This document shows, in pieces, positions 18,047 through 33,781 of a DNA stretch of 64,000 bases. Below the pieces are notes generated by a model that searched no databases, had not been told where the DNA came from, and saw only the letters and a list, made by a program, of their open reading frames with translations. How positions within the stretch are numbered: the stretch's first letter is position 1; each line of letters opens with the position of its first letter. Source of the DNA: Aquabacterium humicola (GTDB taxonomy: Bacteria > Pseudomonadota > Gammaproteobacteria > Burkholderiales > Burkholderiaceae_C); NCBI RefSeq assembly GCF_030167915.1, contig NZ_JARGNB010000002.1, forward strand, positions 496,001 through 560,000. Reading direction: 5' to 3'. A program made the position numbers and the translations under genes.

Positions 18047-18649
18047 CTATCGGGCGGCGGCCCGCAAGGCCTCGATGAACGGGGCCGGCTGCACCGGCTT
18101 GGCGACCAGCGTCACGCCCTCGGGCAGTCCGCCCAGGCCCGCGACCTGCTGCGGCGTGTGGCTGGACACCGCGAACACCGCGTGCGGCCGCACCGTGCTG
18201 CCGCCGCAGACGTGCCGCAGCATCTCGATGCCGTTCATGTGCGGCATCACGATGTCGGTGATCAGCAGCTGCGGCATCGCCTGGCCGATCGAGGTCAGCG
18301 CCTGGAAGCCGTTGTCCGCCAGCAGGATCGTGGCGCCGGGCAGCGCCTCCTCGACCAGCGCGCAGAGCACGTCGCGATCGTCCTCGTTGTCGTCGACGAT
18401 CATCACCGTCAGCGGCGGCGGCGCCTCGGCCGGCAGGTCCGCCGGCAGCCCCTGGCCGGCGATGAAGCGCTCGGCACTCTCGGCGTCGATGCGGCGGTGG
18501 CCGCCGAGCGTCTTCCAGGCCTTCAGATGGCCCTGGTCGACCCAGCGCTGGATGGTCGGTGCCGAGACGCCGAGCCGGCGGGCGAGCTCCGCGGGCGAGT
18601 ACGAGGCGGGCGCGGGCCGCACGGCCGCGGAGGGCTTGGACGAGGTCAC
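18047..18649 (-). CDS. Response regulator with N-terminal MerR/excisionase-type HTH and C-terminal receiver
   Basis: 200 residues. The N-terminus (about 16-65) is a MerR/excisionase helix-turn-helix: YSPAELARRLGVSAPTIQRW, then KTLGGHRRI. The C-terminus (about 78-198) is a receiver with MIVDDNEDD, phosphoacceptor Asp in LLITDIVMPHMNG and Lys in LVAKPV. This order (HTH then receiver) is the reverse of usual response regulators. The start is GTG at 18649, inside a four-base GTGA overlap with the stop of the hybrid kinase gene upstream, so kinase and regulator are translated together and probably act together. The DNA target is unknown. Confidence 0.9.
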   Translation of the reverse strand: MTSSKPSAAVRPAPASYSPAELARRLGVSAPTIQRWVDQGHLKAWKTLGGHRRIDAESAERFIAGQGLPADLPAEAPPPLTVMIVDDNEDDRDVLCALVEEALPGATILLADNGFQALTSIGQAMPQLLITDIVMPHMNGIEMLRHVCGGSTVRPHAVFAVSSHTPQQVAGLGGLPEGVTLVAKPVQPAPFIEALRAAAR

Positions 18650-20964
18650 GAATCCAGTGTACGCACTGGCCCGCGCGCGAGTTGGCGGGCCAGCGTCTGC
18701 AGCAGCCGCGCCGGCTCGAAGGGCTTGCCGAGGCAGTCGTCCATGCCGGCGGCGAGGCAGCGCTCGCGGTCCAGCGCGAGGGTGTGCGCGGTGACCGCGA
18801 TGATCGGCAGCCGGGCATGGCGGGCCTGGGCGCGGATGCGGCGCGCCGTTTCGCAGCCATCCATCGTCGCCAGCTGTACGTCCATCAGCACGACGTCGAT
18901 GCCGCCGGCGTCCAGCGCCTGCAGCGCCTCTTCGCCGGTGGCGGCCATCGTCACCTGCATGCCGGCGACTTCGACCAGCAGCTCGGCGGCGACGAGCCGG
19001 CTGACGTCGTTGTCTTCCACCAGCAGCACGCGGCGCCCGCGCAGCGCGGCGACCGCCGCGGCCCCGGCGCCGGCGTCACCGCTGGCACCGGACGCCTCGG
19101 GCGTCGACGACGGCTCGACGTGTTCGCGCTCCAGTCGCAGGCTGAAGCAGAAGGTGCTGCCGCGCCCCGGCGTGCTGGCGACCTCGATCGTGCCGCCCAT
19201 CGCCTCGACCAGCTGGCGGCTGATCACCAGCCCGAGGCCGGTGCCGCCGTAGCGCCGCGCGGTCGACGCGTCGGCCTGCACGAAGGGCTGGAACAGGCGC
19301 GCGATCTCGTCTGCCGACAGCCCGATGCCGCTGTCGGTCACCGAGAAGCGCAGCTGCGCCGACGACGGCTCGGCGCGCACGCAGTCGACGCGCACCACCA
19401 CCGCGCCGGCCTCGGTGAACTTGATCGCGTTGCTGCACAGGTTCAGCAGCACCTGGCCGAGCCGCGGCCCGTCGCCGACCAGGCGCTGCGGCACCTCCGG
19501 GGCGACCACGAACTGCAGCGCCAGGCCCTGTCGCTGCGCGGCCTCGCCGACCATCGCGCCGATGCGGCCCAGCAGCTCGTAGAGCACGAAGGGCGCCGGC
19601 ACCAGTTCCAGCTTGCCGGCCTCGAGGCGCGAGAAGTCGAGCACGCGGTCGATCAGCTCGAGCAGCGTGTCGGCGGCAATCTTCAGCTTGTCCAGGTAAC
19701 CGCGCTGGCGCGGCGACAGCTCGGTGCGCAGCGTCAGGTCCGCCAGGCCGAGGATGGCGTTCATCGGCGTGCGGATCTCGTGGCTCATGTGCGCCAGGAA
19801 GGTGCTCTTGGCCTGGCTCGCGGCTTCCGCGGCGGCCTGGGCGCGGCGCGAGGCCTCGCCGGCGTTGCGCGCGTCGAGCATCGCGTTGAACTCGGCCGCC
19901 AGCGTGCCGAATTCGCCCGGCAGGCCCTCGTCGGCGCGCACGTCGGTGGCGCCGCCGGCCTGCGCGCGCGCGCTGGCGGCCAGGCTCTGCAGCGGCGCAC
20001 TGAGGCGCCGCGCCGCCCACACCGCCGCGGCCAGGCCGCAGCCGGCCACCAGCAGCAGCGCGAGGGCGCTGCGGCGGAAGGCCTGCTCGCTGCGCGCGGC
20101 AACCTCGTGGTCCGGCGTGAGCGCGCCAACGCGCAGGCCATGGTGGGCCAGGTCGGTGAAGGCGTAGGTCGAGGCGACGCCCGCGTTCGACACCTGCCGG
20201 AACGTCCCGTCGCGCGCTTGAAGCGACGCCTCCTGCACCCGGGCCGGAAGGCGGCGCTCGCCGAGGTCCGGCAGCAGCGGGTCGCGCCCGAGCACGCGGC
20301 CTTCGCCGTCGAGCAGCGCGACGACGCTGCCCTCGGGCATGCCCTCGGTGCCCAGCGGCCCGAGCGCCAGCCGCTGCAGATCGATGGCGGCGGCGAGCAT
20401 GCCGATGCGGCGGCCGGCGGGGTCGCGCAGCGGCGCGACGACGTTGATCATCAGCTTGCGCGACACATCGCCCATGTACGGCCGGCTCAGGTGATGGCGG
20501 CCCTGCGCGGTGGCCGCCTCGGCGCCAGCGAACCAGGGCGCGTCGCGGTAGTTGCGCTTCGGCGCCTGGGGGCGCGCGGACAGGCACAGCAGGTTGCCGT
20601 CCAGGTCGACCGCGCCGATGTTCGCGAGCAGGGGGTCGACCGTGGCGATGCCGGCGATCAGCTGGCCGCAGCCGGGGCCGTCCAGCGCCTGCAGTTCCGG
20701 CCGCGCGGCCAGGAACTGCAGCATGCCATCGATGCGCGTGAAGGCGGTGTCGAGCGACAGGCGCGCGCGGGCGACCCGCGTACGCAGCGTCAGGACCGCG
20801 GCGTCCTCGTCGGCGGCCTTCTGCCGCAGCAGCAGCACGCCGTGCAGCACCAGCAGCGGGGCGGCGGCCGCGCAGACCGTCAGCAGCAGCTTGCCCAGGA
20901 AGTAGCTGCGCCGGCCGGCGTGGGTCTGGACGCGGGGGGCCGGTGCGGGGACGGTACTGCTCAT
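18646..20964 (-). CDS. Hybrid sensor kinase: Cache input, HAMP, HisKA, ATPase, receiver
   Basis: 772 residues. TM1 (about 18-40), a periplasmic double-Cache-like domain (about 45-285) and TM2 (about 292-312), then HAMP. HisKA carries H395 in [15 protein letters not shown]; the ATPase has LCSNAIKF and GGTGLGLVI. A C-terminal receiver (about 645-770) has VVLMDVQLATMDG and GKPFEP. Unlike the other hybrid kinases here it has no HPt domain. The start at 20964 follows AGGAGA; a longer frame to 21012 is less likely. Its stop overlaps the GTG of the HTH-receiver regulator, its likely partner. The promoter lies in the AT-rich island shared with the divergent chemosensory operon. Confidence 0.93.
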   Translation of the reverse strand: MSSTVPAPAPRVQTHAGRRSYFLGKLLLTVCAAAAPLLVLHGVLLLRQKAADEDAAVLTLRTRVARARLSLDTAFTRIDGMLQFLAARPELQALDGPGCGQLIAGIATVDPLLANIGAVDLDGNLLCLSARPQAPKRNYRDAPWFAGAEAATAQGRHHLSRPYMGDVSRKLMINVVAPLRDPAGRRIGMLAAAIDLQRLALGPLGTEGMPEGSVVALLDGEGRVLGRDPLLPDLGERRLPARVQEASLQARDGTFRQVSNAGVASTYAFTDLAHHGLRVGALTPDHEVAARSEQAFRRSALALLLVAGCGLAAAVWAARRLSAPLQSLAASARAQAGGATDVRADEGLPGEFGTLAAEFNAMLDARNAGEASRRAQAAAEAASQAKSTFLAHMSHEIRTPMNAILGLADLTLRTELSPRQRGYLDKLKIAADTLLELIDRVLDFSRLEAGKLELVPAPFVLYELLGRIGAMVGEAAQRQGLALQFVVAPEVPQRLVGDGPRLGQVLLNLCSNAIKFTEAGAVVVRVDCVRAEPSSAQLRFSVTDSGIGLSADEIARLFQPFVQADASTARRYGGTGLGLVISRQLVEAMGGTIEVASTPGRGSTFCFSLRLEREHVEPSSTPEASGASGDAGAGAAAVAALRGRRVLLVEDNDVSRLVAAELLVEVAGMQVTMAATGEEALQALDAGGIDVVLMDVQLATMDGCETARRIRAQARHARLPIIAVTAHTLALDRERCLAAGMDDCLGKPFEPARLLQTLARQLARGPVRTLDS

Positions 20965-21074
20965 CGGTGATCTCCTGGCCGGGCGCAAGGGCCGCGCATG
21001 CCGGTGCGTCATCTGAATGTCTATCGAACTATGGCATACCGACGATTAAAAACAAATAAAACTCTCATTTCTCT

Positions 21075-21149: not shown

Positions 21150-22301
21150 GTGAACCCAGCCCTCGCTCGAACCTTGTCCGATCACGCCGCGACCCTCGTC
21201 GCCGCCGCGGCCGCGCTCGCGCTGATCACCGCCGCCGGCCTGGCGTGGCTGCCGCTCGGCGCCGCCGCCGTGCTCCTGGCCCTGGCCATGGCCGCCGATG
21301 CCCACGGCCGTCGCGGGCGCCGCGGCCTGCAGGCCGACATTGCCGCGCTGCTCGCCGGCCAGCAGGGCCTGGGCGACGCGCTGGTGCCGGTGTGGGCGCA
21401 GCACATCGAATCGTCGCGCTCGCAGATGGAAGTGGCGGTCTCGGCGCTGGCCGAGCGTTTCTCGGGCATCGTCGCCCAGCTGCGGGCGCAGGGCGGCGAG
21501 CCGCCGTCCGGCGGCGCCGGCAACGGCCGGCCAGGCGCGGACGTCGATTTCAGTGGCAGCCGGGACGCGCTGGGTCGCGTCGCGCAGTCGCTGCGGGCGT
21601 CGCAGCAGGGCCAGGCGGCGATGCTGGCGCAGGTCGGCGCCCTGAGCGGCTTCATCGGCGAGTTGCAGGCGATGGCCGACGACGTCGCGCGCATCGCGCA
21701 GCAGACCAACCTGCTGGCGCTGAACGCGGCGATCGAAGCGGCGCGCGCCGGCGAACACGGCCGCAGCTTCGCGGTCGTCGCGCAGGAGGTGCGCGCGCTG
21801 TCGAACCGCTCGGCCGAGTCGGGCCGGCACATCCGCCAGAAGGTCGATGCGGTGGGCAGCGCGATCCGCGCGGCCTGCGCGGCGGCCGAGCAGTCGCTGG
21901 CCGCGGAGCAGGCGTCGACCGAAGCCTCCGGCGCCGCGATCGGCGACGTGCTGGACCGGCTGCGCGGCTCCGCCGAGGCGCTGGCCGCGCGGTCGCAGGA
22001 GCTGCAGGCCAGCCGCGCGCTGATGCAGCACGAGATCGCCGAGGCGCTGGTGCACCTGCAATTCCAGGACCGCATCAGCCAGGTGATGAGCCACGTCACC
22101 GAGAACATGGCGCGGCTGCCGCCGCTGCTGGGCCAGGGCCCCGAGCGCTGGACGAGCGAGGGCCGCCTGGTGCCGCTCGATGCCGCCGCGCTGCTGGCCG
22201 AGCTGGAGCGCAGTTATGCGATGGCCGAGGAGCGCAGCGCGCACCGCGGCGAAACCGTGGCCGCGGCGCCGAGCGCGGCCGACGAGATCACCTTCTTTTG
22301 A
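21150..22301 (+). CDS. MCP-like signalling protein with CheZ-like FQDxxxQ motif
   Basis: 383 residues. Two short hydrophobic segments (about 13-30 and 32-48) without a sizeable periplasmic domain lead to an MCP signalling hairpin with tip [20 protein letters not shown] (about 182-201). Beyond the hairpin, [14 protein letters not shown] holds D307 and Q311 in the spacing of the CheZ catalytic pair (FQDLTGQV in E. coli CheZ, from memory), and the protein ends in ADEITFF, acidic and aromatic like CheZ's CheY-binding tail. The start is GTG 21150 after GAGAGA. It is first in the FliA-promoted operon, directly before cheY, and no separate cheZ is present. It may be a receptor-like scaffold, a CheY phosphatase, or both. 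Confidence 0.85.
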
Positions 22302-22321
22302 ACGACAAAGAGGACACGCCC

Positions 22322-22690
22322 ATGGCCAAGACCATCATGGTGGTGGACGACTCCGCATCGCTGCGGCAGGTCGTCGGCATCGCGCTCGAAGGCGCCGGAT
22401 ATTCGGTGCTCGAGGGCAAGGACGGCAAGGACGCGCTCGGCAAGCTGACCGGGCAGAAGGTCCACCTGATCATCAGCGACGTCAACATGCCGAACCTCGA
22501 CGGCATCGGCTTCCTGAAGGCGGTGAAGGCGATGCCGGCCTACCGCTTCACCCCGGTGTTGATGCTGACCACCGAATCGGCCGAGGCGAAGAAGGCCGAA
22601 GGCCAGGCCGCCGGCGCGAAGGCCTGGATGGTCAAGCCCTTCCGCCCCGAGGCGCTGCTGAACGCGGTGCAGAAGCTGGTGCTGCCATGA
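22322..22690 (+). CDS. cheY: CheY-like single-domain response regulator
   Basis: 122 residues, a lone receiver. Acidic pocket D9/D10 (MVVDDSAS), phosphoacceptor D53 in ISDVNMPNLDG, Thr83/84 and K105 in MVKPFRP. The switch position before the lysine is Trp102 rather than the Tyr of E. coli CheY, so flagellar-motor binding may differ. It is encoded 20 bases after the MCP-like gene and overlaps the STAS gene by four bases (ATGA). It is expected to be phosphorylated by the CheA of this operon. Confidence 0.93.
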   Translation: MAKTIMVVDDSASLRQVVGIALEGAGYSVLEGKDGKDALGKLTGQKVHLIISDVNMPNLDGIGFLKAVKAMPAYRFTPVLMLTTESAEAKKAEGQAAGAKAWMVKPFRPEALLNAVQKLVLP

Positions 22691-22992
22691 ATGCCGGCCT
22701 GGTACCCACCGCCACCGCCGTCGACGGCGAGATGACGATCTACCGCGCCGCCGAGCTCAAGGCCCAGCTGCTGCAGGCGCTCGAGCGCGCGGGCCCGGTG
22801 CTGGAGCTGGACCTGTCCGGCGTCACCGAGATCGACATCGCCGGGCTGCAGCTGCTGCAGATGCTGAAGGCCGAGGCCGCGCAGTCCGCCCGCACGCTGC
22901 AGCTGGTGTGCGTCAGCGTGCCGGTGCACGAGCTGCTGTCGTTGCTGGAGCTGGTGGACCACTTCGGTCCGCCGGCGCTGGTGCTGAGCTGA
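22687..22992 (+). CDS. STAS-domain protein (anti-sigma antagonist-like)
   Basis: 101 residues, a single STAS domain: MTIYRAAELKAQLLQALE, then LELDLSGVTEIDIAGLQLL. The position that carries the phosphorylatable serine in SpoIIAA/RsbV is Ile51 (D50-I51-A52-G53), so it cannot be regulated by that phosphorylation and is closer to MlaB-like STAS proteins. It overlaps cheY by four bases and precedes cheA by 13 bases, so it is translationally part of the chemosensory operon. STAS proteins occur in some alternative chemosensory clusters; a direct role as a protein-interaction module is inferred. Confidence 0.85.
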   Translation: MNAGLVPTATAVDGEMTIYRAAELKAQLLQALERAGPVLELDLSGVTEIDIAGLQLLQMLKAEAAQSARTLQLVCVSVPVHELLSLLELVDHFGPPALVLS

Positions 22993-23005
22993 AGCGGAGG
23001 ACCGC

Positions 23006-25168
23006 ATGGACATCGATGCCGCATTGCAGACCTTCATCGCCGAGAGCCGCGAGCTGCTGGCCGACATGGAATCGGCGCTGCTGTCGATCGGCGCCGACGG
23101 CCAGCAGGCCGAGGCGGTGAACGCCGTCTTCCGCGCCGCGCACACCATCAAGGGCTCGGCCGGGCTGTTCGGCCTGGACGACGTGGTCGGCTTCACGCAC
23201 GCCGTCGAGACGCTGCTGGACGCGGTACGCGACGGCCGCGTGGCGATCGACGACGAGCTGGTCGTGCTGCTGCTGTCGTGCTGCGACCACATGACCGTGC
23301 AGGTGGCGGCGGTCGAGGCCGGCGTGACGACGGATGCCGCCGACACCGCGGCCCAGGGCGCGGCGCTGCTGGCGCAGATCGGGCGCTATGGAACGCCGGC
23401 TCCGGCCGCGGAGCCGCCGCACACGCCGCACACGCCGGACACGCCGGACGAGGCCGGCGCCGGCGCGGCCGAAGCCGGCGCCGCCGACCAGTGGCACCTG
23501 TCGCTGCGCTTCTCGCCCGACGTGATGCGCAACGGCTTCGATCCCGCGTCCTTCATCCGCTACCTGTCGACGCTCGGCCGCATCGTGCGCATCGTCACGC
23601 TGACCGACGCGCTGCCGCCGGCGGCGCAGCTGGACCCCGAGTGCTGCTACCTCGGCTTCGAGATCAACTTCGCCACCGCCGCCGACAAGGCGACGATCGA
23701 AGGTGTCTTCGAATTCGTGCGCGACGACTGCACGCTGCGCATCGTGCCGCCGCGCAGCCGCATCGCCGACTACCTGCGCCTGATCGACGAGCTGCCGGAG
23801 AACGCGCCGCGGCTGGGCGAGATCCTGGTGCGCTGCGGCAGCGTCACCGAACGCGAGCTGCAGGCCGCGCTGCAGGCGCAGGCCGCCGCGGCGGGCGCGG
23901 CGCCGAAGCTGGGCGCCATCCTGGTCGAGCAGCGCATCGTCGAGGCCGAGGTCGTCGAGGCGGCGCTGACCAAGCAGCGCCAGCAGCGCCAGGGCGGCGG
24001 AGAGGCGAAGGCGCGCGAGAGCCGCTCGCTGCGCGTCGATGCCGACAAGCTCGACCAGCTGATCACGCTGGTCGGCGAGCTGATCATCGCCGGCGCCGGT
24101 GCCGGCCTGCTGGCGCGCCGGCACGGCCACGCCGAGCTGGTCGAGGCCACGGCACGGCTGGATACGCTGGTGCAGCAGGTGCGCGACAGCGCGCTGCAGC
24201 TGCGCATGGTGAAGATCGGCGCCACCTTCGGCCGCTTCCAGCGCGTGGTGCACGACGTCGCGCGCGAGATCGGCAAGGACATCGTGCTCGAGGTCAGCGG
24301 CGAGGACACCGAGCTGGACAAGACGGTGGTCGAGAAGATCGGCGACCCGCTGCTGCACCTGGTGCGCAACGCGGTCGACCACGGCATCGAATCGCCCGAC
24401 GAGCGCGAGGCGCGCGGCAAGCCCGAGCGCGGCACCGTCCGGCTGAACGCCTTCCACGACTCCGGCAGCATCGTCATCGAAGTCGGCGACGACGGCGGCG
24501 GGTTGAAGCGCGAGCGCATCCTGGCCAAGGCCATCGAGCGTGGCCTGGTGCAGCCCGAGCAGCGCCTGAGCGACGACGAGGTGCATGCGCTGATCTTCGA
24601 GCCCGGCTTCTCGACCGCCGAGGCGGTGACCAACCTGTCCGGCCGCGGCGTCGGCATGGATGTGGTCAAGCGCAACATCGCCGCGCTGCGCGGCAGCGTC
24701 GGCATCCGCAGCGTCGACGGGCAGGGCACGACGGTGGTCGTGCGGCTGCCGCTCACGCTGGCCATCATCGACGGCTTCCTGGTCGGCGTCGGGGGTTCCG
24801 TCTTCGTCGTGCCGCTGGAGGCGGTCGAGGAATGCATCGAGCATGCCGCCGAGCCCGGCCATTCGTGGTGCAACCTGCGCGGCCAGGTGCTGCCGCAGGT
24901 GCGCCTGCGCGAGCACTTCGAGATCGACGCCCCGGCGCCGCGGCGCGAGAGCGTCGTCGTGATCCGGCACGGCGGCGAGCGCTTCGGCCTGGTCGTCGAC
25001 CAGCTGATGGGCGAATTCCAGACCGTCATCAAGCCGCTGTCGCGCGTCTTCGCGCAGGTCAAGAGCATCAGCGGCTCCACCATTCTCGGCAGCGGCGAAG
25101 TCGCGCTGATCCTGGATGTTCCCGCGCTGCTGGCCGACGTGCTGGCGCGTCAACGCGTCGCGCTCTGA
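23006..25168 (+). CDS. cheA: Chemotaxis histidine kinase CheA with MshEN-like tandem motifs
   Basis: 720 residues. P1 HPt with H46 in RAAHTIKGSAG; a central ferredoxin-like domain (about 160-260, WHLSLRFSPDVMRNGFDP); two tandem 24-residue motifs at 269-292 (RLGEILVRCGSVTERELQ and so on, ending LQAQ) and 301-324 (KLGAILVEQRIVEAEVVE and so on, ending LTKQ); P3/P4 with LVRNAVDHGIE, DDGGGLKRERI and GRGVGMDVVKRNI; and a C-terminal CheW-like P5 (about 590-718). It phosphorylates CheY, CheB and probably the REC-EAL protein under receptor control. The tandem motifs resemble the c-di-GMP-binding MshEN domain and are unusual for CheA. GGAGG precedes the ATG. Confidence 0.96.
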   Translation: MDIDAALQTFIAESRELLADMESALLSIGADGQQAEAVNAVFRAAHTIKGSAGLFGLDDVVGFTHAVETLLDAVRDGRVAIDDELVVLLLSCCDHMTVQVAAVEAGVTTDAADTAAQGAALLAQIGRYGTPAPAAEPPHTPHTPDTPDEAGAGAAEAGAADQWHLSLRFSPDVMRNGFDPASFIRYLSTLGRIVRIVTLTDALPPAAQLDPECCYLGFEINFATAADKATIEGVFEFVRDDCTLRIVPPRSRIADYLRLIDELPENAPRLGEILVRCGSVTERELQAALQAQAAAAGAAPKLGAILVEQRIVEAEVVEAALTKQRQQRQGGGEAKARESRSLRVDADKLDQLITLVGELIIAGAGAGLLARRHGHAELVEATARLDTLVQQVRDSALQLRMVKIGATFGRFQRVVHDVAREIGKDIVLEVSGEDTELDKTVVEKIGDPLLHLVRNAVDHGIESPDEREARGKPERGTVRLNAFHDSGSIVIEVGDDGGGLKRERILAKAIERGLVQPEQRLSDDEVHALIFEPGFSTAEAVTNLSGRGVGMDVVKRNIAALRGSVGIRSVDGQGTTVVVRLPLTLAIIDGFLVGVGGSVFVVPLEAVEECIEHAAEPGHSWCNLRGQVLPQVRLREHFEIDAPAPRRESVVVIRHGGERFGLVVDQLMGEFQTVIKPLSRVFAQVKSISGSTILGSGEVALILDVPALLADVLARQRVAL

Positions 25169-25198
25169 GGCGCCCCGGTTTCCTTCGAAAGGCACCCC

Positions 25199-26905
25199 AT
25201 GTTCAACAACGTTTCCCTGAAGTCCAAGATCCTGGCGCTGCTGGGAGTGGGCATCCTCGCGCTCGCGGCCGTGATCGTGATCGCATTCCTGGGCCTGCGG
25301 CGCGATGCCGAGATGCTCGACGAGGTCGGCCGCAACCGGCTGCCCTCGGTCAATGCGCTGCAGACGATCAACGAGGCGCAGACGGCGATCCGCTCGGCCA
25401 ACCGGTACATCGACAGCATGGTCGCCTACCCGGCGGACCTGAAGGACCTGGACCGTCAGCTGCAGCGCAAGGGCGAGGCCTGGCAGCGTGTCGACAAGGC
25501 CTGGAAGGTCTACGAGCCGCTGCCGCAGGAGGCCGAGGAGGCCCAGGTCTGGAAGCAGTTCGTGCAGCAGTGGGAGACCTGGAAGGCCGGCGATGCGCGC
25601 CTGACCACGCTCGCCAAGGAAATCGGCCGCAACGAGCAGCCGGCCCGGCGCAAGGAGCTCTTCGAGCAGTTCCACGCCCAGCTGGTCGGCGCGCGCGAGG
25701 ACTTCGGCAAGGCCGAGGCCAGCCTGGGCAAGCTCGTCGAGCTGAACACGCAATACGCCGACAGCGCGGTCAAGTCCGCCAGCGAGTCCTCCGCGCGGGC
25801 CCAATGGCTGATGTACACCGCCTCGGGCATCGCGCTGGCCCTGCTGGTTGCGCTGGGGCTGTTCATCCTGCGCGCGGTGATGCGCCAGCTCGGCGGCGAC
25901 CCGGCCTACGCGCAGCAGATGGTCGAGCGGGTCGCCGCCGGCGACCTCACGGTGGCCATCGCGCTGAAGCCCGGCGATACGAGCAGCCTGCTGGCCGCGA
26001 TGAAGCGCATGGTCGACAAGCTGTCGCATGTCGTCGCCGAGGTCGCCGGCAGCGCCAACGGCCTGGCCAGCGCCGCCGAGCAGGTCAGCTCCACCGCGCA
26101 GTCGCTGTCGCAGGCGGCCACCGAGCAGGCGTCGGGCGTCGAGGAAACCAGCGCGTCGGTCGAGCAGATGACCGCGTCGATCGCGCAGAACACCGACAAC
26201 GCCAAGGCCACCGACGCGATGGCCAGCAAGGCCGCCGGCGAAGCCACCGAGGGCGGCGAGGCGGTCAAGGCCACCGTCGCGGCGATGAAGCAGATCGCCA
26301 AGAAGATCGTGATCATCGACGACATCGCCTACCAGACCAACCTGCTGGCGCTGAACGCGGCGATCGAAGCGGCCCGCGCCGGCGAGCACGGCAAGGGCTT
26401 CGCGGTCGTCGCGGCCGAGGTGCGCAAGCTCGCCGAGCGCAGCCAGGTCGCGGCGCAGGAGATCGGCGAGGTCGCCGGCTCCAGCGTCGAGCTGGCCGAG
26501 CGCGCCGGCCATCTGCTCGGCGAGATGGTGCCCAACATCCAGCGCACCTCGGACCTGGTGCAGGAGATCACCGCCGCGTCGCAGGAGCAGAGCTCGGGCG
26601 TCGCGCAGATCAATGCCGCGGTCGCGCAGCTGAGCCAGACGACGCAGCAGAACGCCGCCGGCAGCGAGCAGCTCGCCGCCACCGCCGAGGAGATGAGCGG
26701 CCAGGCCGAGGAACTGCAGAACATCATCGGCTTCTTCAAGACCGCGTCGGATGCGGCCGCGCCGGCGACCAGCGCGCCGGAGATCGCCCGCAGCGCGCTG
26801 CGCCGGGCCGCGCGCGGCGCCGGCCGGCCGGCCCCGCGCGCCGGCGAGCAGAAGGTGGGCGCCGACGGCGCGCCGGTCGACGAGTCGCTCTTCGTCAAGT
26901 ACTGA
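25199..26905 (+). CDS. Methyl-accepting chemotaxis protein, four-helix-bundle type
   Basis: 568 residues, inner-membrane receptor. TM1 (about 10-30), a periplasmic four-helix-bundle sensor rich in Lys/Glu/Trp (31-195), TM2 (about 203-225), HAMP with [19 protein letters not shown], methylation helices and the tip [20 protein letters not shown]. The tail is Ala/Arg-rich and ends LFVKY, without the NWETF-type pentapeptide that tethers CheR in enteric receptors. It is encoded between cheA and cheW, 30 bases from cheA, and is the only full transmembrane receptor in the operon. The ligand is unknown. Confidence 0.95.
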
Positions 26906-26932
26906 GCACGGCCGCGTGAAGGACACCCTCAC

Positions 26933-27454
26933 ATGACAGCCCCCGTTCATGCCGCGGCCCCCGCGGCGCAGGACCCCGCGCAGTACCTGAGCTTCGTGCT
27001 GCGCGGCGAGGTCTACGCGATCGGCATCCTCGCGATCAAGGAGATCATCGAGTACGGCGGCCTGACCGCGGTGCCGATGATGCCGCCGGCGATCCGCGGC
27101 GTGATCAACCTGCGCGGCGCGGTGGTGCCGGTGCTGGACCTGGCGCTGCGCTTCGGCAAGCCGGCGGCCGAGCCGACCAAGCGCACGTGCATCGTCATCG
27201 TCGAGCTGGCGCTGGGCGGCGTGCACAGCGTCGTCGGCCTCGTCGTCGACGCGGTCAACGCCGTGCAGGAGATCGCGCCGGCCGACATCGAGCCGCCGCC
27301 GGCCTTCGGCACGGCGATCGCGACGCCGTTCATCGCCGGCATGGGGAAGGTCGACGGCCGCTTCGTGATCCTGCTCGACATCGACCAGGTGCTGGCGATC
27401 GAGGGCCTGGGCATCGCGGCCGGCGTCGAGGACGAGGCGGCGCTGCCGGCCTGA
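26933..27454 (+). CDS. cheW: CheW coupling protein
   Basis: 173 residues, one CheW domain (about 17-160): QYLSFVLRGEVYAIGILAIK, then IRGVINLRGAVVPVLDL, and late strands with FVILLDIDQVLAIE. It links the receptors to CheA in the array. The N-terminus is an Ala/Pro-rich leader of about 15 residues and the C-terminus is acidic. It follows the MCP gene by 27 bases and precedes cheR by 47 bases. Confidence 0.96.
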   Translation: MTAPVHAAAPAAQDPAQYLSFVLRGEVYAIGILAIKEIIEYGGLTAVPMMPPAIRGVINLRGAVVPVLDLALRFGKPAAEPTKRTCIVIVELALGGVHSVVGLVVDAVNAVQEIAPADIEPPPAFGTAIATPFIAGMGKVDGRFVILLDIDQVLAIEGLGIAAGVEDEAALPA

Positions 27455-27501
27455 GGCCGCAACGCCCCCGCCGCAACGCAGCCGATCACGCGAGCCGACC
27501 G

Positions 27502-28302
27502 ATGTCCGAGCTCACCGAACGCGAGTTCCGCCTCGCCCAGCGCTTCATCCTCGACGCCGCCGGCATCACGCTGGGGTCGGGCAAGCAGGCGCTGGTCAGC
27601 GGCCGGCTCGACAAGCGCCTGCGTGCGCGGCGGATGGACAGCTACACCGCCTACTTCGAACTACTGCTCCAGCCCTCCGAGGCGGCCGAGCGCCAGTGCG
27701 CGATCGACCTGCTGACGACCAACGAGACCTACTTCTTCCGCGAGTCGAGCCACTTCGAGCGCCTGCGCGGCTGGGCGCTGGCCGCGCGCCAGGCCGGTGC
27801 GCCGCTGCGCGTGTGGAGCGCCGCCTGCTCCAGCGGCGAAGAGGCGTACAGCATCGCGATGGTCCTGGCCGACGTGCAGGGCGATCTGCCGTGGCAGCTG
27901 CTGGCGTCGGACATCTCCGAGCGCATGCTCGCGCGCGCCCGCAGCGGCCACTACCCGGAGGCGCGCACCGAGGGCCTGCCGGACGAGTACCGCCGGCGCT
28001 ACTGCCGGCGCGGCACCGGTGCGCAGCAGGGCACGCTGCTGGTCGAACGGTCCCTGCGCGAGCGGGTGCGTTTCGAGTCCGTCAACCTGAACCGCGCGCT
28101 GCCGGCCATCGGCCGCTTCGACGTGGTGTTCCTGCGCAACGTGATGATCTATTTCGACCTCGCGACCAAGCGCGACGTGGTTGCGCGCCTGGTGCCGGCG
28201 ATCGAGCCGGGCGGCCACCTGCTGGTGGGCCACTCCGAGACGCTGGCCGACATGCATCCGTCGCTGCGCGCCGTCGCGCCGTCGGTCTACCGCAGGATCT
28301 GA
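27502..28302 (+). CDS. cheR: CheR chemoreceptor methyltransferase
   Basis: 266 residues. N-terminal all-helical domain with FILDAAGITLGSGKQALVSG, then an S-adenosylmethionine-binding domain: TTNETYFFRESSHFE, VWSAACSSGEEAYSIAMVLA and FLRNVMIYFD. It methylates glutamates on the receptors to set adaptation. I chose the ATG at 27502, which begins MSELTEREF; the longer frame is an overlap with cheW in another phase. It is seven bases from cheB. Confidence 0.96.
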   Translation: MSELTEREFRLAQRFILDAAGITLGSGKQALVSGRLDKRLRARRMDSYTAYFELLLQPSEAAERQCAIDLLTTNETYFFRESSHFERLRGWALAARQAGAPLRVWSAACSSGEEAYSIAMVLADVQGDLPWQLLASDISERMLARARSGHYPEARTEGLPDEYRRRYCRRGTGAQQGTLLVERSLRERVRFESVNLNRALPAIGRFDVVFLRNVMIYFDLATKRDVVARLVPAIEPGGHLLVGHSETLADMHPSLRAVAPSVYRRI

Positions 28303-28308
28303 GCGTCC

Positions 28309-29391
28309 ATGGGCATCAAGGTGATGATCGTCGACGACTCGGCCGTGGTGCGCCAGGTGCTGGGCGGGCTGGTGGCCGCCGATCCGGGCCTCGAGCTGCT
28401 GCACGTGGCCGCCGATCCGCTGCTGGCGATGGAGCGCATGAAGTCCGCGTGGCCGGACGTGATCGTGCTCGACATCGAGATGCCGCGCATGGACGGGCTG
28501 ACCTTCCTGCGCAAGCTGATGAGCGAACGGCCGACGCCGGTGGTGATCTGCTCGACGCTGACGGACAAGGGCACGGCGACCTCGGTGGAGGCGCTGGCCG
28601 CCGGTGCGGTGGCCGTGGTCGCCAAGCCGCGGCTGGACCTGAAGCGTTTCCTGCAGGGCAGCGCGGCCGAGCTGGTCGCCACCGTCAAGGCCGCCGCGCG
28701 GGCGAACCCGCTGCGGCTGGCGGCGCGGGCGTGCGCGCCGCCAGCGCCGCCGCGCTACAGCGCCGACGCGGTGCTGCCCGCCGCGCCGGCCCGGGCGCTG
28801 GCGCGCACCACCGACCAGGTGGTGGCGATCGGCACCTCCACCGGCGGCACGCAGGCGCTGGAACGCGTGCTGACCGCGCTGCCGCGCGTCAGCCCGGGGC
28901 TGGTGATCGTGCAGCACATGCCGGAGAAGTTCACCGCCGCGTTCGCGCAGCGGCTGCATGCGTTGTGCGCGATCGAGGTCCGCGAAGCCGCCAACGGCGA
29001 CCGCGTGCGGCCCGGCCTGGCGCTGATCGCCCCCGGCGGCCGCCACATGCTGCTGCGCCGCGCCGGCGCGCAGTACCACGTCGACATCGTCGACGGCCCG
29101 CCGGTGAGCCGCCACCGCCCGTCGGTCGACGTGCTGTTCCGCTCGGTCGCGCGCAGCGCCGGCGCCAACGCGCTGGGCATCATCATGACCGGCATGGGCG
29201 ACGACGGCGCGGCTGGCCTGCTCGAGATGCGCGGGGCCGGCGCGCGCACCGTGGCGCAGGACGAGGCGAGTTGCGTCGTCTTCGGCATGCCGCGCGAGGC
29301 CATCCGCCGCGGCGCGGCCGAGCGCTGCGTGGCGCTGGACGCGATCGACCGCGAGATCATGGCCCTGCAGGCCGGGCAGGGGCTGGCATGA
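28309..29391 (+). CDS. cheB: CheB protein-glutamate methylesterase
   Basis: 360 residues. N-terminal receiver with D55 in [13 protein letters not shown], a Pro/Ala-rich linker (about 135-168) and the C-terminal esterase with S177 in GTSTGG, H203 in VQHMPEKF and the aspartate in MTGMGDDGA (298/299). It removes methyl groups from receptors when phosphorylated by CheA. There is no cheD in the operon, so deamidation also rests on CheB. The stop overlaps the next start by four bases. Confidence 0.96.
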
Positions 29392-30599
29392 CCATCGCGC
29401 TCGTCGTCGAGGACAGCGGCGTGCAGCGCCGGCACATGGTCGGGCTGCTGGTCGACCTGGGCTACGAGCAGGTGCTGCAGGCGGCCAACGGCCACGAGGC
29501 CTTGCAGACGATCGACGCGGCCGCGCAGCCGTCGATCGAGCTGGTGGTCACCGACATCGACATGCCGGGCATGGACGGCATCGAGCTGATCGGCCGGCTC
29601 GCGCAGCGGCGCGACGTCGGCCACCTGATCGTCACCAGCGCGCGCGACCCGCGGCTGCTGGAGACCGTCGAGTGCCTGGCCGGCGCCCATCCGGCGATGC
29701 CGCTGCTGGGCGCGGTGACCAAGCCGGTGTCGCGCGAACGCCTGGCGCAGTTGCTCGAAGGCATCCGGGCGGGCCGCGGTCGCGCCCCGGCCGGCGCCAC
29801 CGTCGCGGCCGGGCTGCCGGAGATCGAGGCGGCGCTCGACGCCCGCCAGTTCGAGCCCTTCGTGCAGCCCAAGGTGGCGCTGGCCACCGGCCTGCTGCAC
29901 GGCGTCGAAGCGCTGGCGCGCTGGCGCCATCCCGAGCGCGGCGTGCTCGGGCCGGCGCACTTCATCGACGCCATCGAGGGCACGCCGCTGATGGCGCGCT
30001 TCACGCTGCAGATCGTCGAGCGCGCGCTGGCCCATTGGCGAAACTGGGCGCGGGCGCTGCCCGGGCTCAAGCTGTCGATCAACCTGTCGGCCGACGACCT
30101 CGTCGACCCCACGTTCGTCGGCCAGCTGATGGACCGCGTGCACCAGCACGGCGTGCCGCCGGCCGCGCTGATCTGGGAGGTCACCGAATCGATGCTGATG
30201 CGCCCGCCAGCGATGGGCAGCCTGGCGCGGCTGGGGCTGAAGGGCTGCGGGTTGTCGATCGACGACTTCGGCACCGGCTACTCGTCGATGCAGACGCTGT
30301 CGCGCAGCCCGTTCACCGAGCTGAAGATCGACCGCAGCTTCGTCGACGGCGCCAGCGAACGCGCCAACCGCCGCGCGATCCTCGACAGCGCGCTGGCGCT
30401 CGGCCGCCAGCTGGGCATCAGCACCGTCGCCGAAGGCGTCGAAACCGAGGCCGACTGGCAGCTGCTGCGCACGCTGCGCTGCGACCTCGCGCAGGGCTAC
30501 TTCATCGCGCGGCCGATGCCGGCGGCCGAGCTGCTGCCGTGGCTGCGCGCGAACCGCGCGCGGCTGCGGCAGCTGGCGCCGCCGGCGACGATCCGCTGA
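29388..30599 (+). CDS. REC-EAL response regulator, c-di-GMP phosphodiesterase
   Basis: 403 residues. N-terminal receiver with VVEDSG, D56 in [12 protein letters not shown] and K112 in AVTKPV. The EAL domain (about 143-395) has E174 in [50 protein letters not shown] and [11 protein letters not shown] see every catalytic residue expected for an active enzyme that cleaves c-di-GMP to pGpG. It overlaps cheB by four bases (ATGA), so it is an integral output of the chemosensory operon, likely activated by phosphoryl transfer from CheA. This gives the pathway a c-di-GMP arm besides CheY. Confidence 0.94.

Positions 30600-30652: not shown

Positions 30653-33781
<3,129 letters not shown>

Follow-up and report, generated by a model that had tools for sequence, protein, structure and literature searches.

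A candidate c-di-GMP receptor domain of the MshEN_N type in the P2–P3 linker of a CheA kinase from Aquabacterium humicola

The window analyzed here, a stretch of 64,000 nt from Aquabacterium humicola (contig NZ_JARGNB010000002.1, positions 496,001–560,000), encodes a 720-residue chemotaxis kinase CheA at 23006..25168 on the + strand. Residues 269–324 of this protein are probably a receptor for cyclic di-GMP (c-di-GMP) of the MshEN_N type, inserted in the linker between the P2 and P3 domains and tuning the kinase. The observations behind this reading are the segment's membership in the MshEN_N group by sequence, its predicted fold, the conservation of its ligand-contact positions, its place in the protein, and an old, clustered inheritance.

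The combination of MshEN and CheA is not new and has been in print since 2016, when a list of the proteins with which MshEN is associated included “chemotaxis protein kinase CheA” (Wang et al., 2016; PMC5013675). Those fusions have the same domain combination, with neither species nor place in CheA given in the main text, and no CheA is named as tested in the portion of that text consulted. The CheA MshEN_N described here is a well-supported member of this published kind; added are the residues kept, the residues changed, the position of the domain, and the observation that searches with PF05157 miss it. Among the matches listed in a literature search there was no experiment on an MshEN-CheA, nor any assay of binding by a kinase of this kind. 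Text matches to “CheA” in the available parts of PMC12943098, PMC10519070, PMC10333796, and PMC7288161 were author names in reference lists and were set aside.

The CheA Protein and its Two Motifs

The translated open reading frame at 23006..25168 has Pfam matches to Hpt (residues 7–94), H-kinase_dim (339–398), HATPase_c (447–584), and CheW (590–711), all four above their cut-offs and in the order from which its product can be assigned to CheA. The complete domain order appears to be Hpt (P1), P2-like, MshEN_N, P3 dimerization, HATPase (P4), and CheW-like (P5). The P2-like domain (approximately residues 162–247, 23489..23746, + strand) was recognized by a predicted ferredoxin-like fold (AlphaFold2 and Foldseek) and weak similarity to PF07194; P3 (24020..24199, + strand) begins shortly C-terminal of the MshEN_N segment. 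The P2-like domain is itself strongly conserved in this CheA subfamily, with weak matches to PF07194 (P2) in 16 of the 60 relatives aligned below (best E 0.0031).

The published MshEN consensus is RLGxx(L/V/I)(L/V/I)xxG(L/V/I)(L/V/I)xxxxLxxxLxxQ (PMC5013675). Motif I (residues 269–292, 23810..23881, + strand, RLGEILVRCGSVTERELQAALQAQ) departs from it only at position 11, with Ser in place of L/V/I. It is followed on the same strand by the spacer AAAAGAAP (residues 293–300, 23882..23905) and by motif II (residues 301–324, 23906..23977, KLGAILVEQRIVEAEVVEAALTKQ), which departs from the consensus at three positions, with Lys1 for Arg, Arg10 for Gly, and Val17 for Leu. The first-pass annotation of this DNA had described two motifs of exactly 24 residues separated by eight, and this is borne out, residue 269 starting at 23810 and residue 324 ending at 23977. 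Its L...L..Q spacing is found in motif I and broken by Val at position 17 of motif II; the Lys that opens motif II had been recorded correctly, while Arg10 and Val17 of that motif and Ser11 of motif I had been missed. Ligand contacts in MshE are made by positions 1, 2, 3, 17, 21, and 24 of each motif (PMC5013675). All six of the corresponding residues (R1, L2, G3, L17, L21, Q24) are found in motif I and four in motif II, where Lys1 and Val17 differ. The spacer does not have the canonical five residues, being eight here and 5–28 in the 60 related CheAs. Five residues are not strictly defining for MshEN, however, since the GSPII-C domain of PilF has seven.

Family Models and Predicted Structure

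The NCBIfam model NF053729 (MshE-related c-di-GMP_motif) matches the whole CheA over residues 269–324 (E 4.7e-9, 35.9 bits). Isolated CheA segments score 42.7 and 43.7 bits, so that the curated cut-off of 38 for this two-motif family is exceeded on fragments and missed on the whole protein. As negative controls, the segment was reversed once and shuffled eight times, and in no case did NF053729 match at E ≤ 10. All 60 aligned relatives match at E ≤ 1 (best 3.4e-14). There are three CheA-type kinases in the genome, and only the one at 23006–25168 is among its NF053729 matches at E ≤ 1. The NfrB and PRK15489 models, which represent glycosyltransferases with MshEN, also match the CheA fragment (E 2.8e-4 and 1.8e-6, respectively), with scores far below both whole-protein cut-offs. 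A sequence profile built from 59 CheA segments, that of the window included, was compared with the sequences in the PDB: the best 14 of 17 matches were PilF, PilB, or MshE (PilF 9.8e-21, PilB 1.5e-9, the MshE–c-di-GMP complex 5htl 3.6e-6, PilF GSPII-B 8pdk 5.6e-5). With a profile from a longer, 60-row alignment, 14 of 14 matches were MshEN proteins.

An AlphaFold2 model of residues 158–352 from 60 sequences had a mean predicted local distance difference test score (pLDDT) of 81.4, with four helices over the segment (blocks at 84–93) and a ferredoxin-like P2-like part (blocks at 81–94). A Foldseek search with this two-domain model was headed by ribosomal protein S6, SbtB, and the like, with no MshEN protein among the best 50 of 1553 matches and no match of any kind at E ≤ 0.001; the segment was therefore modelled alone (residues 256–334, 59 sequences), again giving four helices (mean pLDDT 75.7). 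Ten of its 12 PDB matches are MshEN-type domains. The first six are c-di-GMP complexes of PilF GSPII-B or MshE (8pdk, 8pfa, 5htl twice, 9gl5, 9glg), superposed over 57–59 columns with a root-mean-square deviation (rmsd) of 1.0–1.4 Å, a probability of 1.00, and template modelling scores of 0.63–0.68 on the query. The segment is thus predicted to fold as the four-helix bundle seen in MshEN c-di-GMP complexes. Together with the NF053729 match and the PDB profile search, this supports the MshEN-like identity first proposed from the motifs alone, and the structural overlay suggested at that time came out in its favor, if at weak E-values.

Conservation in Related CheAs

A scan of named genomes with patterns from the P2-like domain confirmed at least 582 relatives, and the analysis continued with the best 80. 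Conservation was analyzed in 60 CheAs, that of the window and 59 from the 80 loci, the other 21 having been dropped by hand before alignment to shorten the list. A search of CheA homologues for the motifs had been proposed from the outset, and they are indeed retained: both are present in 80 of 80 aligned rows (the best 80 of 582), and in neither motif does Gly3 or Gln24 change across the 60 CheAs. Equally invariant are Gly10, Thr13, Glu16, and Leu21 of motif I and Ala19 of motif II. Position 17 is Leu in motif I of 59 and Val in motif II of 55, and Leu21 of motif II is found in 49. Other positions are looser. Motif II has Pro at position 1 in 32 rows and Lys or Arg in six each, and no more than 28 rows have Gly at its position 10. 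In motif I, 54 rows have Thr, Ser, or Ala at position 11.

Mean entropy, computed on 59 rows with one further locus left out, is 0.57 bits at the contact positions as against 1.27 for all 48 motif positions (permutation p 0.002, or 0.0002 without position 1, with kinship among rows ignored). The difference between contact and remaining positions is strong in motif I (0.31 vs. 1.76) and milder in motif II (0.83 vs. 1.53). Motif I is unconstrained at positions 14, 15, 19, 22, and 23. The invariant glutamines stand among varying neighbors, as would be expected of a ligand contact.

Comparison with Known MshEN Domains

One of the closest known systems is MshE of Vibrio cholerae, through its MshEN domain (PDB 5htl; Wang et al., 2016; PMC5013675). 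Like that domain, the CheA segment has two 24-residue motifs and a four-helix bundle (predicted in CheA), with Leu2, Gly3, Leu21, and Gln24 in both halves and Arg1, Gly10, and Leu17 in motif I. It differs in its spacer (eight residues instead of five), in Ser11 of motif I, in Lys1, Arg10, and Val17 of motif II, in lacking the MshEN_C subdomain, and in its host, a kinase rather than an ATPase. The missing MshEN_C should be no bar to binding, because the isolated MshEN_N of MshE binds c-di-GMP without it, with a dissociation constant (KD) of 0.35 µM (PMC5013675).

The closest sequence match to the CheA segments is GSPII-C (6f8l) of Thermus thermophilus PilF, for which PMC11731258 gives a KD of 324–460 nM, ascribed from isothermal titration calorimetry on truncations. 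The profile alignment shows Lys11 in its motif I, Pro1 and Val17 in its motif II, and seven residues between the two. This domain thus shares Val17 of motif II with CheA and comes within one residue of its spacer; it differs in belonging to an ATPase and in having Gly10 in motif II and three motifs. The neighboring GSPII-B (8pdk) has Lys at position 1 of motif I and binds with a KD of 6 nM (PMC11731258). Most departures of the CheA subfamily therefore seem to have parallels in PilF GSPII-C. By analogy, Lys1 looks tolerable for MshEN because GSPII-B binds with it (in motif I, not II), as does an eight-residue spacer because related CheAs range so widely around it.

Distribution and History

Among 150 genomes of the same family, 44 match the region made up of the P2-like domain and MshEN at E ≤ 1e-3; the poorest matches span the MshEN part alone and apparently lie in other proteins. 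In 16 of 30 family CheAs read, including that of the window, the domain lies between P2-like and P3. One of the two other genomes of the genus in this set (G143) has no match to the region at E ≤ 1e-3. The named-genome scan found relatives in Burkholderiales, Azoarcus, Thauera, Gallionella, Thiobacillus, Methylobacter, Halorhodospira, a Shewanella metagenome-assembled genome, and others; the query contained the domain, and the best 80 cannot show how common it is. In a sample of 398 genomes from the phylum, 148 match. Of 28 further loci read from this sample, one was mis-extracted; the remaining 27 comprise eight with both motifs and both Gln24 residues, one with His for Gln24 of motif I, three without the domain, and 15 with a shortened form taken up below.

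A tree was built from 75 kinase cores (P3–P5, the domain columns left out), using 19 of the 80 named loci. The full domain occurs in 42 of these, no domain in 17, and a form without Gln24 of motif I in 16. These states need seven changes, compared with a mean of 29 in shuffles. The tree is a quick one with long branches, 31 of its 72 inner branches are open, and it bears a coarse statement only: the domain seems to be clustered and old in this CheA subfamily, with gain and loss not separable.

Weighing the Evidence

Several observations count against a functional c-di-GMP receptor. Foldseek matched the 79-residue query at weak E-values (0.11 or higher), and the PDB entries to which the model was then matched may themselves have taught AlphaFold this fold. 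NF053729 falls about 2 bits short of its curated cut-off of 38 on the whole CheA. The 80 loci behind the alignment, being the best of 582 ranked by likeness to a query with the domain, favor conservation. Arg at position 10 of motif II (Gly47 in MshE) has no precedent among the binders examined, and CheA differs, if more mildly, at three of the positions blamed for XpsE's failure to bind (I19 to Ser, R38 to Lys, L54 to Val). Fourteen of the 30 family CheAs were counted as without the domain, although L026 among them may retain a degraded trace of it, and another Aquabacterium genome (G011) has three CheA loci, all without it. In the shortened form (15 of the 27 phylum loci, all outside the class), motif I ends before Gln24 and there is no spacer, which suggests that the module can persist without the full site. 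PF05157, the profile first proposed as a check, has no match on CheA at E ≤ 10 and matches none of the 60 related CheAs at E ≤ 1. This silence turned out to be uninformative as to the motifs, since the model covers the other subdomain. PF05157 matches residues 285–371 of a PilB/GspE-like ATPase encoded by the same genome, and the best NF053729 stretch (residues 201–254) lies ahead of it. PF05157 models the C-terminal MshEN subdomain and NF053729 the ligand-binding N-terminal one; because PF05157 sits behind the motifs in this control, its silence means that CheA has MshEN_N only and no MshEN_C.

The most substantial alternative is that the MshEN fold is kept and nucleotide binding lost, leaving a rigid spacer or dimer contact in the P2–P3 linker. 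XpsE is a documented non-binder with the same fold, in which the changes G11V, I19R, L29R, R38G, G40L, L54H, L58C, and Q61V are blamed (PMC5013675). The irregular motif II of CheA, with its Arg10, Val17, and variable position 1, would fit such a history, as would Ser at core position 11 of motif I and the persistence outside the class of the shortened form without Gln24 of motif I (L130–L139 and L141–L145), which keeps Gln24 of motif II and is possibly a degenerate, non-binding descendant. CheA, however, keeps five of the eight positions linked to binding, and XpsE, unlike CheA, has lost both Gly3 and Gln24 of motif II (PMC5013675). That both Gln24 and both Gly3 residues are invariant in the 60 CheAs, while five positions of motif I vary freely, counts against a purely structural role, and since the domain is missing from nearly half of the family CheAs read, it is not needed as a spacer. 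Loss of binding is on this evidence rather unlikely. A role mainly in docking another protein, for instance of the PilZ type and with or without c-di-GMP, as for the PilB N-terminal domain, is suggested by Foldseek matches 7–10, which are complexes of that domain with PilZ (7lkm twice, 7lkn, 7lko). These are weaker (rmsd 1.7–3.4 Å) than the c-di-GMP complexes, and conservation falls on residues that in MshE touch the nucleotide, making this an improbable explanation. CheA linkers are Ala-rich and the whole-protein NF053729 score is just below cut-off, so that a chance likeness of an Ala/Leu/Gln-rich helical linker might also be considered. It is hardly credible given both motifs in every one of the best 80 of 582 loci, the invariance of contact residues Gly3 and Gln24 in the 60 aligned, and the predominance of MshEN proteins in the PDB profile search, and it was rejected when the reversed and shuffled copies gave no NF053729 match.

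Possible Mechanism and Implications

Returning to a c-di-GMP receptor as the preferred reading, binding of the nucleotide by the CheA MshEN_N is, from the residues retained, quite probable. Each 24-residue half would hold one guanine, through the backbone amide of Gly3 and the cluster of residues 2, 17, and 21, with Gln24 reaching the ribose and phosphate, so that a single c-di-GMP would clamp the two halves together. Such clamping could stiffen or reorient the P1–P2 arm relative to the P3–P4 core and so alter phosphorylation of P1 by P4, or phosphotransfer to CheY, CheB, and perhaps the receiver-EAL protein encoded downstream. An effect of c-di-GMP on the kinase is somewhat favored; this step is an inference, and its sign cannot be read from sequence. 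The broader proposal, that an old beta- and gammaproteobacterial CheA subfamily is gated directly by c-di-GMP through a P2–P3 MshEN_N clamp, with a closed loop where the operon has a receiver-EAL protein, is more tentative and falls a little short of an even chance.

Known links between c-di-GMP and chemotaxis act through PilZ adaptors on CheR, at receptors, or at CheY-like proteins. A kinase that binds c-di-GMP would place control at the very start of the phosphorelay. Under the broader proposal, the second messenger would set the gain of the array directly at the kinase, instead of at receptors, CheR, or CheY-like proteins. Because the domain is small and natural sister CheAs lack it, the idea is directly testable.

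Gene Neighborhood and c-di-GMP Supply

The cheA gene lies in a run of genes in one direction (+ strand) from 21150 to 30599. Upstream are an MCP-signaling-domain protein (21150..22301, Pfam MCPsignal), a CheY-like receiver (22319..22690, Response_reg), and a STAS-domain protein (22687..22992, STAS_2); downstream are a chemoreceptor with a 4HB sensor and an MCP signaling domain (25199..26905, 4HB_MCP_1 and MCPsignal), CheW (26933..27454, CheW), CheR (27490..28302, start approximate, CheR), CheB (28309..29391, CheB_methylest and Response_reg), and a receiver-EAL protein (REC-EAL, 29388..30599, EAL E 1.3e-64 and Response_reg). The STAS-domain frame between CheY and CheA, as taken here, shares four bases with the 3' end of the CheY gene. 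REC-EAL is a putative c-di-GMP phosphodiesterase; its translation includes EALAR, NLS, EVTES, DDFGTG, KID, EGVET, and QGY, which we take to be the usual EAL catalytic motifs. An operon ending with a phosphodiesterase had been described in the first-pass annotation. This is partly right, as a hybrid histidine kinase (30653..33781; 4HB-like, GAF, PAS, HisKA, HATPase, REC, and Hpt) follows REC-EAL on the same strand after 53 bp.

There are 55 GGDEF matches in the genome (two domains being counted twice, as pieces), and c-di-GMP is therefore very likely made in this host. With REC-EAL nearby, GGDEF proteins abundant, and the domain present in CheA, a loop from CheA to REC-EAL to c-di-GMP and back to CheA can be imagined, closed through the phosphodiesterase, but it remains doubtful. 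Gene neighborhoods were compared for 18 family loci with the domain (the window and 17 picked by hand) and 20 without it, likewise picked, with domains assigned by motif patterns; contig ends truncate part of the flanks, and certain genomes contribute two loci. An EAL gene downstream on the same strand was found at four of the 18 loci with the domain and one of the 20 without (Fisher p 0.17), and any c-di-GMP enzyme gene nearby at seven and four, respectively (p 0.29), neither difference being significant. Of the 80 named loci, the 40 that have at least 5 kb on either side were counted: ten have a downstream same-strand EAL gene and 16 any c-di-GMP enzyme gene, counts that have no matched control and come from a set partly overlapping the family sample.

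Other Observations

The PilB/GspE-like ATPase used as a control for PF05157 (L001 1–2262, − strand; G000:C1:19023-19361) has a longer array than the usual motif pair, with four head-to-tail MshEN-like motifs separated by six-residue spacers ahead of the PF05157 match, and three overlapping NF053729 matches. NF053729 also matches (44.3 bits) a protein with a ParA/CbiA-type nucleotide-binding domain, N-terminal of that domain (L003; G000:C3:58977-59132). This protein is possibly an EpsG-like tyrosine kinase. In the window itself, an ORF on the − strand (18047–18649) encodes a protein that joins a MerR-type helix-turn-helix at its N-terminus to a receiver domain, and adjoins a dCache hybrid histidine kinase gene at 18646–21012.

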